Notes under the pieces: generated by a model
Databases searched by the model: none
What the model was told of the DNA's origin: nothing
The model's input: only the letters and a program-made list of their open reading frames with translations
Part shown: positions 8,837 to 46,909 of the stretch, in pieces
How the letters are laid out: every line of letters begins with the position of its first letter
Numbering within the stretch: position 1 is the stretch's first letter
Origin: Candidatus Nitrosopelagicus sp.
GTDB taxonomy: Archaea > Thermoproteota > Nitrososphaeria > Nitrososphaerales > Nitrosopumilaceae
Length of the DNA: 64,000 bases
Assembly (NCBI GenBank): GCA_022450565.1
Contig: JAKUOP010000008.1
Span: 25,575 to 89,574, forward strand
Direction: 5' to 3'
Program-made: the position numbers and the translations under genes

Positions 8837-10024
8837 TTAATTTTTCCAATTACTACTCATTACATCAATTTGTTTAAAATCAAATTGAACACATGTACAT
8901 CTATTCTGGAGCATATCACTAATGTTAGGTTTAACCCTAGAATTTTCAATAAATGATTTTATTGGTACGCCACCATCAATTAACATAAAAATTTTCAGAG
9001 ATGTTGAATCAGATTTTTTATATTTTATATCATAGATTGATTTTTTAATAATTTTTTCACCGCGATTATGAATTTCCAAAGGAATGTTCTTGATTAATGA
9101 TAATTTTTTTAGTAGGTCATCTTCTAACGGTAGCTCTGACTTTACTAGAATGATTACTTTGGATCTGAATGGTACAGAGTCTTTTGGTTGACTTTTAATC
9201 TGTCGTAAATCATGTAATTTTATTCCGTCTAGATAGTCTTGTTTTTTAATTCTTACATTTCTAATATGCGGTTCAGAAATTTTTAGAAAAAATGGTCTCC
9301 CATTTCCTGAAATTAAACTTGCTTTATCTTCTCCACCAATCCAGTTAATTTTAACTTGTTTCGATTTGAATTTTTTGATAACAAATTGTGCTATTTGGCC
9401 TTCAACACTGTTGAAATTTTCTAATCCATGATAATCACATGAAACACAGCCTTTACCTTGACAATTTTTACATGTATCCTGTTTCTGAGGTAAATTTCGT
9501 CGTACCTTTGTATATCTACCATACAAAAATAAAGATCTTGAATGTATTTTGCATGAATTATCTTTAAAATTTACTTTTAGTGTAAGTTCTGGATCCATTC
9601 CATCAAGTTTTGACTTTGTTCTTCTTCCAAATTTCTTCCCAATTTCATGATTAAGGTGTGTCTTAACATTCATGACTCCTTTTATCTTAAATTTTGATCT
9701 AACCGTATCATCATTATCAGAAATTGATGGTTTTATGATTGACCCTATAAGAAAAGTTGAAAATTGATATGATGATGAATTTTCAATCATATGGGCTACA
9801 ACTTCATCAAGTTTTTCAAAAATGTCTTTACAGATAAAACATTTCTTCAATTCAGATTTTTCTGCCTTAGAATTAAATTTTTTACCTAGATTGCTACTTG
9901 GTTTCAAGCCTAATTCTTTAGATACTAATCTTCCAATACAAAAATTGCATAATGAATAATTTCTTAAAATATTATTTACTAAATGCTGTGTTGAGTTAAT
10001 TTTTTTCATACCAATACTTACCAT
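8837..10024 (-). CDS. pus10: Pus10-family tRNA pseudouridine synthase homologue, probably inactive site
   Basis: Overall architecture is Pus10 (archaeal enzyme for psi54/psi55 of tRNA): N-terminal zinc/THUMP part with CNFC (residues 26-29) and CFIC (about 62-65), then a CKNCQGKGCVSCDYHG segment near 185-200, then the catalytic half. The family active-site motif GREDxDxR...GxGRPF aligns without gaps to GGEDKASLISGNGRPF (about 229-244): the Arg and the second Asp, the expected catalytic acid, are Gly and Ala. The later GTYIKEFVHGD-GRT motif reads GGVPIKSFIENSRV, losing the Tyr and HGD-GR residues. Length 395 is normal. So it is a full-length Pus10 relative that probably binds tRNA but may not modify it. 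Co-oriented with srp54 (34 bp gap). Confidence 0.85.
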   Translation of the reverse strand: MVSIGMKKINSTQHLVNNILRNYSLCNFCIGRLVSKELGLKPSSNLGKKFNSKAEKSELKKCFICKDIFEKLDEVVAHMIENSSSYQFSTFLIGSIIKPSISDNDDTVRSKFKIKGVMNVKTHLNHEIGKKFGRRTKSKLDGMDPELTLKVNFKDNSCKIHSRSLFLYGRYTKVRRNLPQKQDTCKNCQGKGCVSCDYHGLENFNSVEGQIAQFVIKKFKSKQVKINWIGGEDKASLISGNGRPFFLKISEPHIRNVRIKKQDYLDGIKLHDLRQIKSQPKDSVPFRSKVIILVKSELPLEDDLLKKLSLIKNIPLEIHNRGEKIIKKSIYDIKYKKSDSTSLKIFMLIDGGVPIKSFIENSRVKPNISDMLQNRCTCVQFDFKQIDVMSSNWKN

Positions 10025-13298: not shown

Positions 13299-13421
13299 CC
13301 CCACTTAGCTCAGCCTGGTAGAGCTTCCGGCTGTAGTTGTCGGCTTAGGGCTGAAAAACAGCAGTCTATCAGGCATACAGAAACCGGGTTGTCGAAGGCT
13401 CAAATCCTTCAGTGGGGACCA
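13299..13421 (+). tRNA. tRNA-Tyr(GTA) with 46-nt intron, CCA encoded
   Basis: Acceptor stem CCCCACT/AGTGGGG with the C1-G72 pair typical of archaeal tRNA-Tyr, D arm GCTC/GAGC with GG in the loop, anticodon stem TCCGG/CCGGG, loop C-T-GTA-G / A, T arm GAAGG-CTCAAAT-CCTTC, discriminator A and an encoded CCA at 13419-13421. The anticodon loop is interrupted after position 37 by an intron at 13337-13382. CTGTA in the 5' exon pairs with TACAG near the intron 3' end, forming the core of a bulge-helix-bulge for the archaeal splicing endonuclease. Position 54 is C instead of T. The other three tRNAs in the window do not encode CCA. Confidence 0.93.
13337..13382 (+). other. tRNA-Tyr intron
   Basis: 46-nt intron at the canonical 37/38 position, bounded by a bulge-helix-bulge type fold (CTGTA...TACAG with an AAA bulge on the 3' side). 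Exact cut sites could shift by a base or two. Confidence 0.8.
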
Positions 13422-32937: not shown

Positions 32938-35823
32938 ATGGAATTAAACTGGAATCAAATAGACGACAAATGGAGAAGTAAATGGTATGACTCCAAAGAC
33001 TTTGAAACAGATCCTAATGACAAGCCAAAAAAATTCATAACAGTTGCATATCCATATCCAAATTCACCACAACACATTGGTCATGGAAGAACTTACACCT
33101 TAGCAGACGTTCATTCTCGCTACTATAGAATGAAAGGATACAATGTGTTATTCCCAATGGGATTTCATTATACAGGAACACCAATTCTTGGAATGTCAAA
33201 AAGAGTTCAGGCTAACGATGTTGAATTAATTGAAGCCTTCAAAACACTGTATAATGTTCCTGAAGATAAAATCAAAGAATTTGTAGATCCTGTAAAAATT
33301 GCTGACTACTTCCATGAAGAGATAAAATCTGGAATGATTGAGATGGGATATTCCATAGATTGGAGAAGAGAGTTTACAACAATCATACCTGCATATCAGA
33401 GATTTATTGAATGGCAATTTCGAAATCTAAAAGAGAAAAATTTAATCGTGCAAGGAAATCACCCTGTAGGTTGGTGCCCAAATGATCAAAACCCTGTTTC
33501 ACAACATGACACGCTAGGTGATGTTGAACCAGACTTCACTGAATATATTATAATAAAATTCAACATAGAGGATGCAATTATTCCTGTTGCAACACTACGA
33601 CCTGAAACATTATTTGGTGTAACAAATCTTTGGATAAATCCAGAAATTGTATATAAAAAAGTGAAGGTTGATGGTGAAACTTGGATAATTAGTGCAGAGT
33701 GTGCATACAAGCTAGAGTTTCTTAATAAAAAAATTGAGATTATAGAGGATGTTTTAGGCTCACAATTAATTGGAAAGAAAGCCCATAGTCCAACAAATGA
33801 TGATGAATTTCTGATTCTTCCTGCATCTTTTGTCACAGCAACTATTGGAACAGGTATTGTAATGTCTGTGCCTGCACATGCACCATATGATTTTCAAGCA
33901 TTAGAAGATATCAAAAATGGAAATCAGGAAAACATTGATGATTCTTTACGGAATGAAGTTAGGAACATTCAAGCAATTACAATTATCACCACAGAAGGAT
34001 TTGGAGATATTCCATCACTAGATGTGATCAAAAGAATGAAAATTACAAGTCAAAATGATCCAAAATTAGAAGATGCAACAAAGGAGATATACTCAAAAGA
34101 ATTCTACGAAGGTAAGCTAAATTCCAATACTGGTGAATTTGCAGGTAAAAAAATTACATTTGTCAAAGAAGAAGTGAAAGAATGGATATCTAAAACAGGC
34201 AAATCAGATATTATGCTTGAACTAACAAATGAATCGGTAAAGTGCAGGTGTGGAACAGAATGTGTTGTAAAGCTACTCAACAATCAATGGTTTTTGGATT
34301 ATGCAAATAAGGAATGGAAAGAAAAAGCACATAACTGCTTTGAGTCAATGGACATATTACCAAACGATATCAGAACAGAATTTTTCAATGTACTTGATTG
34401 GTTACGGGAAAGAGCATGTGCAAGACAACATGGATTAGGAACAAAAGTTCCATGGGATAATGATTGGTTGGTTGAAAGTTTAGCAGACTCGGTTATCTAT
34501 ATGTCATTTTACATTATGGCAAAATTTGTCAATTCAGGAGAAATATTGGCAGAGAACATGTCTGACGAATTTTTCAATTATATATTCTATGGAACCGGAG
34601 ATTCTGAAATAATTGCAAAGAGTGCAAAAATTACAATAGAAAAACTAGAAGAGATTAGAAATGAATTTTTGTATTTCTATCCAGTTGATTCTAGGCATTC
34701 AGGTAGAGATTTAGTTCCAAACCACTTAACATTTTTTGTTCTAAATCATGTTGCAATATTTCCTAAAGAACACTGGCCAAAAGAAATTGTTGTGAATGGC
34801 TCCGTCTTGATGGATGGAAAAAAGATGTCAAAATCAATGGGCAACATTATCCCATTACGTGATGCAGTTAGAAAATATGGTGCAGACCCAATTAGATTAT
34901 CAATACTAATCTCAGCCGAACTTTTGCAAGATGCTGATTTTAATCTAGAAACAATCTCAAGTATCAAAAATAGATTGGAATCAATGCATGAAGAATGCAT
35001 AAAACTCAGAAATCCTGGAAAGATAGGAACCGAACCTGAAGATGTCTGGATAGAAAGTAGACTGTCAAAATTAATTACTGAAGTAACTGATTCCATGGAA
35101 AAAATGCGTCTTCGTGAATCATTACATCATATTTTGTATGGATTTGACTCTGATCTTCAATGGTATATGAAAAGGGCAAGTGCAAAAAATAGAGATGACG
35201 TTTCAGGAGTTCTGAATAAAGTTCTTGCAACACGTATTTCTATGCTCTCACCATTTGCACCTCATATAGCCGAAGAAATGTGGGAAAAATTAGGAAATTC
35301 TGAAATGGTTTCAAAATCAGCATGGCCAAAAGAAGAAGAACAAACAGATGATAAGGCAGTACAAAATGAGAGTTTACTTAGTTCGGTAATGAATGATATT
35401 TCAAATATTACCAAAGTGACAAAGATTATACCAAAAAAAATTATAATCTATACAGCAGATAGTTGGAAATCAAAAGCATACCATAAAATTCTAAGCGGTG
35501 TTAATTCAGGAGAGACAAATGTTGGGGCATTTATCAAAGAGTTAATTTCAAAAAAAGAGACAGAAAATGTCAAAAAAGATCCTGACTTTGTAAAGAAAAC
35601 ACTCAAAGATATCTTATCGGAACCAACAGAACTAAGAAAAACAAAGATGAATGCAGGAGAAATTGATGAAAGTAAAATTATTTCTAATGAGCTTTCGTCA
35701 CTAGTAGAAACTGATTATGGAATAAAATTACAAGTATTCTCTGAGAATGATACTGAAAAATATGATCCAAAAAATAAAGCAAGAATGGCAAGACCTTACA
35801 AACCAGCAATATTAATCGAATAA
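32938..35823 (+). CDS. leuS: Leucyl-tRNA synthetase, archaeal type
   Basis: Class I synthetase: HIGH box as PNSPQHIGHGRTYT (about 43-50) and KMSKS in GKKMSKSMGN (near 624), with a large editing (CP1) domain containing TLRPETLFGVTNLWINP. 961 residues matches archaeal/eukaryal LeuRS. It is 8 bp downstream of alaS and almost certainly in the same transcript. The Lys-rich C-terminal domain binds the tRNA long arm. Confidence 0.97.
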   Translation: MELNWNQIDDKWRSKWYDSKDFETDPNDKPKKFITVAYPYPNSPQHIGHGRTYTLADVHSRYYRMKGYNVLFPMGFHYTGTPILGMSKRVQANDVELIEAFKTLYNVPEDKIKEFVDPVKIADYFHEEIKSGMIEMGYSIDWRREFTTIIPAYQRFIEWQFRNLKEKNLIVQGNHPVGWCPNDQNPVSQHDTLGDVEPDFTEYIIIKFNIEDAIIPVATLRPETLFGVTNLWINPEIVYKKVKVDGETWIISAECAYKLEFLNKKIEIIEDVLGSQLIGKKAHSPTNDDEFLILPASFVTATIGTGIVMSVPAHAPYDFQALEDIKNGNQENIDDSLRNEVRNIQAITIITTEGFGDIPSLDVIKRMKITSQNDPKLEDATKEIYSKEFYEGKLNSNTGEFAGKKITFVKEEVKEWISKTGKSDIMLELTNESVKCRCGTECVVKLLNNQWFLDYANKEWKEKAHNCFESMDILPNDIRTEFFNVLDWLRERACARQHGLGTKVPWDNDWLVESLADSVIYMSFYIMAKFVNSGEILAENMSDEFFNYIFYGTGDSEIIAKSAKITIEKLEEIRNEFLYFYPVDSRHSGRDLVPNHLTFFVLNHVAIFPKEHWPKEIVVNGSVLMDGKKMSKSMGNIIPLRDAVRKYGADPIRLSILISAELLQDADFNLETISSIKNRLESMHEECIKLRNPGKIGTEPEDVWIESRLSKLITEVTDSMEKMRLRESLHHILYGFDSDLQWYMKRASAKNRDDVSGVLNKVLATRISMLSPFAPHIAEEMWEKLGNSEMVSKSAWPKEEEQTDDKAVQNESLLSSVMNDISNITKVTKIIPKKIIIYTADSWKSKAYHKILSGVNSGETNVGAFIKELISKKETENVKKDPDFVKKTLKDILSEPTELRKTKMNAGEIDESKIISNELSSLVETDYGIKLQVFSENDTEKYDPKNKARMARPYKPAILIE

Positions 35824-46747: not shown

Positions 46748-46793
46748 AAATATAATGAGAAAAACTCACTATAAAACTAACTGAATGAATTAG

Positions 46794-46867
46794 TGGGCCC
46801 GAAGGGCTTCGCTCCCTTGGCTCCTCGGTTATGAGCCGAGTACTCTACTAGGCTGAGTTACGGGCCC
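46794..46867 (-). tRNA. tRNA(CAT), elongator Met or Ile2, with altered elbow
   Basis: Acceptor GGGCCCG/CGGGCCC with A73, D stem ACTC/GAGT, anticodon stem CTCGG/CCGAG with loop CTCATAA (anticodon CAT), T stem AAGGG/CCCTT. It lacks the three G-C pairs of an initiator, so it is elongator Met or Ile2 (CAT with agmatidine); the GGGCC acceptor slightly favours Ile2. The D loop reads AGCCTAGTA (A at 18, G19 kept) and the T loop AGCGAAG, so T54-psi55 and G18 are all replaced. CCA not encoded. Confidence 0.92.
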
Positions 46868-46909
46868 TATGCAAACAGATTTTTTGTCAGTAAAAAGTGT
46901 TGTAGAATT

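Follow-up and report, generated by a model that had tools for sequence, protein, structure and literature searches.

The contact between G18 and pseudouridine 55 (Psi55) is nearly invariant among tRNAs. One CAT tRNA gene in the 64,000-nucleotide stretch of Candidatus Nitrosopelagicus sp. DNA analysed here (contig JAKUOP010000008.1; hereafter the window) encodes neither partner, which raises the question of whether the elbow of this tRNA is damaged or has been rebuilt. Normally, G18 is inserted between residues 57 and 58 of the T-loop, where it forms a bond with Psi55 (PMC4810234). The gene and its variant positions were located as follows:

46794..46867, minus strand: gene assigned to tRNA-Ile2(CAU), with an A18/A54/G55 elbow (ARAGORN; Rfam RF00005, 55.3 bits; isotype by comparing all three CAT tRNAs).
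46849, minus strand: A18, where nearly all tRNAs have G18 (sequence; present in 18 of the 25 Nitrosopelagicus genomes with the gene).
46807..46813, minus strand: T-loop A54 G55 C56 G57 A58 A59 G60 (sequence; A54 and G60 family-wide, G55 only in this genome and two relatives).

The ends of the gene were set by ARAGORN and Rfam RF00005 (55.3 bits) at 46793/46794 and 46867 on the minus strand. The tRNA reads GGGCCCG-TA-ACTC-AGCCTAGTA-GAGT-A-CTCGG-CTCATAA-CCGAG-GAGCC-AAGGG-AGCGAAG-CCCTT-CGGGCCC-A, with every stem completely paired, AGCCTAGTA as the D loop and AGCGAAG as the T loop (A54 at 46813, G55 at 46812). Both programs and the sequence thus agree with the original prediction, which had described four perfect stems, A18 and this T loop. 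The canonical pairs G18-U(Psi)55 and U54-A58 are absent (A18, G55 and A54 instead), whereas G19-C56, R57 (as G57) and A58 are present, the retention of G19-C56 and A58 having also been predicted; U8-A14 and G15-C48 are kept as well. Among the approximately 39 tRNAs parsed in this genome, A18 or G55 occurs in no other. A54 stands beside a normal G18-U55 in tRNA-Thr(CGU) (L005) and tRNA-Arg(UCU) (L016) of the same genome and is, judged by these sequences, a wider lineage trait that extends beyond tRNA-Ile2. Two further peculiarities were observed. The gene has A10-U25 instead of G10-C25, as do all Nitrosopumilaceae Ile2 genes seen, so that the usual G10 methylation site is lost; A10 is found in no other fully parsed tRNA of this genome. 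At 13299-13418 (plus strand), an intron-bearing tRNA unseen by ARAGORN (Rfam, 47.1 bits) has the T-loop CTCAAAT, with C54.

The isotype was assigned by comparison of the three CAT tRNAs in the genome. The initiator (L008) has A1-U72 and a GGG/CCC anticodon stem, and the elongator methionine tRNA (L034) begins with GCCGGGG and bears an intron; the third begins with GGGCCCG, carries A73 and resembles archaeal Ile2 genes phylum-wide. Since its CAU anticodon sits in a tRNA matching neither of the others, it is by elimination classed as tRNA-Ile2(CAU) and not as a methionine tRNA. It shares with archaeal tRNA-Ile2(CAU), the substrate of TiaS, the anticodon loop CTCATAA, the acceptor stem GGGCCCG/CGGGCCC and A73, and TiaS is encoded in the genome (PF08489, 131.6 bits). 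Agmatidine at C34 and charging with isoleucine are expected, and the tRNA would read AUA once TiaS has modified C34.

46831..46833, minus strand: anticodon CAU, with agmatidine expected at C34 (sequence; TiaS family PF08489 encoded in the genome).

Among the tRNAs of the genome, no tRNA-Ile(UAU) was found, the isoleucine-type tRNAs being GAT and CAT only, and the assembly (a 63-contig draft) contains no second, normal Ile2 copy; at 95% completeness, there is a small probability that such a copy was missed. In the window, AUA accounts for 464 of 1632 isoleucine codons (28%) and is used in 57/57 large ORFs. As far as these searches reach, tRNA-Ile2(CAU) is the sole AUA reader found in the assembly. 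The gene is very likely essential, given its isotype, the lack of a UAU tRNA, the presence of TiaS and the use of AUA in every ORF. The original prediction had allowed for a pseudogene should a second normal tRNA of the same identity exist; the gene proved to be single-copy and intact. A tRNA standing outside ordinary translation, either as a pseudogene or as a special-purpose tRNA freed from the elongation cycle, might be suspected because some non-standard tRNAs lack the classical elbow contact and because the 18-55 pair was reportedly found important for rapid translocation by Pan et al. in 2006 (cited in PMC4810234). This explanation is very improbable in view of the AUA usage, the lack of another AUA-reading tRNA, the presence of TiaS and the conservation of the gene together with its promoter; a pseudogene was rejected on the basis of identical copies in relatives and the missing alternative AUA reader.

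46889..46897, minus strand: TATA-like promoter element CTTTTTACT, at about -30 (similar element at the same place in 25/25 compared genomes).

The distribution of the variant was determined in 31 Nitrosopelagicus genomes, of which 25 yielded the gene: 15 with A18-U55, three with A18-G55 and seven with G18-U55. A BLAST survey had suggested that 13/31 genomes were without the gene; this was rejected for seven of them, in which a neighbour-gene search recovered a diverged copy with G18-U55 in the same syntenic position, and the remaining 6/31, all incomplete drafts, gave no match. The A18-G55 carriers are this genome (G000), AH-558-D10 (G036) and AG-464-N14 (G121), the latter two being independent single-cell genomes whose Ile2 gene is identical to the present one over 74 nt. 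The adjacent TenA-like protein shares 84% identity with its counterpart in AH-558-D10 and 67% in AG-464-N14. In a draft of 63 contigs, the variant might be imagined to stem from faulty sequencing or assembly, or from a mutation confined to one strain, and the original prediction had named sequencing error and strain-specific mutation as possible outcomes; identical copies in independently sequenced relatives rule out chance and error and make this explanation hardly credible.

The gene is intact, its synteny is conserved, and the locus is the identical syntenic one across Nitrosopumilaceae. In the other genera of the family, every sampled Ile2 gene has G18-U55 with A54 and G60, whereas those sampled from other Thermoproteota families combine G18 with a TTCRAAY-type T-loop, in contrast to A18, A54, G55, G60 and A10-U25 here. 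The standard form that might have been expected in other strains was thus encountered in part: G18 occurs in deeper Nitrosopelagicus and in other genera, but the T loop there reads ATC (A54-U55) and not TTC. From this distribution, A54 is placed as old and A18 as younger, arising inside Candidatus Nitrosopelagicus, with G55 younger than A18 or of the same age. A joint origin of all three changes was rejected for A54, which is family-wide. Of the proposal that 18, 54 and 55 change together, the coupling of 18 and 55 stands, and their joint origin survives as one of two histories. In a tree built from seven syntenic proteins, AG-464-N14 branches with full support outside the group that joins this genome plus AH-558-D10 to the A18-U55 clade. 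Two histories of three changes each would explain this equally briefly: A18 and G55 arose jointly and G55 later changed to U55, or G55 arose twice on A18. Under both, G55 would be tied to A18, and within the genus G55 is confined to an A18 background. A18 occurs without G55 in 15/18 A18 genomes, a complete 1.23-Mb genome among them; with A18-U55 steady in these 15, A18 does not strictly depend on G55 in the genus.

Recurrence in other archaea was examined by scanning 300 Thermoproteota genomes with a fixed D-arm/T-arm pattern, which covers some tRNAs per genome and thus represents a sample. One pattern match (G318) was discarded as chance; the A18 tRNAs otherwise recovered were Nitrosopelagicus Ile2 and the tRNA-Thr(UGU) and tRNA-Thr(CGU) of a family designated f4. 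The f4 genes (L245-L254, L258-L260) comprised 11 with A18-G55 and two with A18-U55, all with A54 and G60, and their A18-G55 elbow is, by sequence comparison, of separate origin from that of Nitrosopelagicus Ile2. The corresponding scan for G18-G55 returned no match in the 300 genomes.

In viral contigs, the pattern matched at least 120 A18-G55, 53 A18-U55 and 9 G18-G55 tRNAs, some of the A18-U55 matches possibly being misparsed GGAG loops; among the matches listed, 120/122 A18-G55 cases had a full cloverleaf. Selection on the result was avoided by tabulating the other tRNAs on those contigs and leaving out the search probes, with positions 18/19 set by rule from ARAGORN loops. On the contigs of the matches listed, which were chosen for holding non-standard tRNAs, these non-probe tRNAs comprised 619 G18-U55, 78 A18-G55, 6 A18-U55 and 4 G18-G55. 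The association of 18 with 55 gave a Fisher p of about 4e-91, which was hardly altered by clustering and allows for shared ancestry by this simple clustering only. On contigs picked for a normal tRNA, A18-G55 was present in 3/374 other tRNAs, with no A18-U55 and no G18-G55. Phage A18-G55 spans about 20 isotypes on 87 contigs among the matches listed. Most of these tRNAs keep U54: in the listed set, A54 goes with G60 in 14/14 and U54 with a pyrimidine at 60 in 144/147. The cultured Salmonella phage PVP-SE1 carries a tRNA-Ile(GAU) with A18 and the T-loop AGCAAAG, alongside a normal tRNA-Ile; it has the same A18 plus A54-G55-G60 set as the archaeal tRNA but is viral and of another isotype. The tRNA-Ile of Escherichia phage 4MG, considered as a possible K-12 model, has a normal elbow, and the Nitrosopelagicus Ile2 gene in its exact form gave no match when viral sequences were scanned. 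Apparent covariation was also observed at positions 19 and 56, whose G19-C56 pair is universal in tRNAs: A19-U56, U19-A56 and C19-G56 occur in phage tRNAs (L358, L375, L384, L390, L376 and other viral loci).

In both the phage tRNAs and the f4 tRNA-Thr class, A18 and G55 are joined far more often than they occur apart. The covariation of 18 with 55 seen in the genus, where G55 goes only with A18, recurs in both groups, and with intact stems and identical copies in relatives it bears out the original view of a compensated variant, not decay. Under neutral drift, tRNA-Ile2 of a small, streamlined genome could do without the 18-55 contact, and A18 and G55 would be mildly deleterious changes, independent of each other, that selection failed to remove. 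The persistence of A18-U55 in 15 genomes and the additional loss of U54 and the G10-C25 pair from tRNA-Ile2 would fit this explanation. It is unlikely nonetheless, as G55 on G18 was never seen in the genus or the 300 genomes, A18-G55 recurs independently in f4 tRNA-Thr and is strongly associated in phages, all stems and other tertiary positions are intact, and the 74-nt identity spans a deep divergence.

Very probably, the gene encodes a functional tRNA-Ile2(CAU) that reads AUA, with an elbow rebuilt by A18-G55 pairing. The coupling of 18 and 55 is strongly supported by the comparisons, and the few phage tRNAs with G18-G55 count against strict pairing. In the most likely geometry, reasoned by analogy, A18 would take the place of G18, still stacked between T-loop residues 57 and 58, and pair with G55 in place of Psi55, the elbow being closed by the usual G19-C56. 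G55 would substitute for U55 in the turn, since T-loop motifs elsewhere have G here together with an intercalated A. The FMN riboswitch T-loops (UGAAA) take such an intercalating A (PMC3764141); like its L2/L5 T-loop, AGCGAAG has G at position 2, a purine at 4 and A at 5, and an A would be expected between residues 4 and 5 here too. It differs in belonging to a tRNA elbow, in having A and not U at position 1 and in pairing position 3 with G19. A54 would pair with A58; the same pair occurs in eukaryotic initiator tRNA (PMC7912444), where A54 likewise replaces U54. That tRNA is usually described with U55 and G18, whereas the present elongator has G55 and A18.

8867..9976, minus strand: Pus10 pseudouridine synthase gene (TIGR01213, 218.7 bits; contig 34441-35550).

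Pus10 acts on U54/U55 of tRNAs and is retained in this genome for its other tRNAs; with A54 and G55, tRNA-Ile2 would offer no target to 54/55 uridine-modifying enzymes, as had been anticipated. TrmY was considered as a co-lost enzyme and rejected, being absent genus-wide and hence without correlation to the variant.

No description of A18-G55 in natural tRNAs was found in the accessible literature, which did not include older suppressor-tRNA selections and T-loop motif reviews; the older work on selected suppressor tRNAs may include such 18/55 combinations. The portion consulted of a review of non-canonical natural tRNAs contains no A18-G55 case (PMC7609411). Because other archaea and numerous phage tRNAs show the same swap with an independent origin, A18-G55 seems to be a genuine alternative elbow and not a product of decay. 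On balance, it would probably be a general, self-consistent second elbow solution of many origins that occurs in most isotypes, archaeal and phage, is independent of Psi55 and has been overlooked as annotation tools silently accept it. That a very likely essential archaeal tRNA and many phage tRNAs carry a covarying natural substitute for this pair suggests that pseudouridine is not needed to rebuild the elbow. The substitute pair offers sequence features for tRNA engineering and raises the question of why phages carry such tRNAs. Nitrosopelagicus, whose nearly identical Ile2 tRNAs exist in A18-U55, A18-G55 and G18-U55 versions, provides ready sets in which the contact and its modification may be tested.
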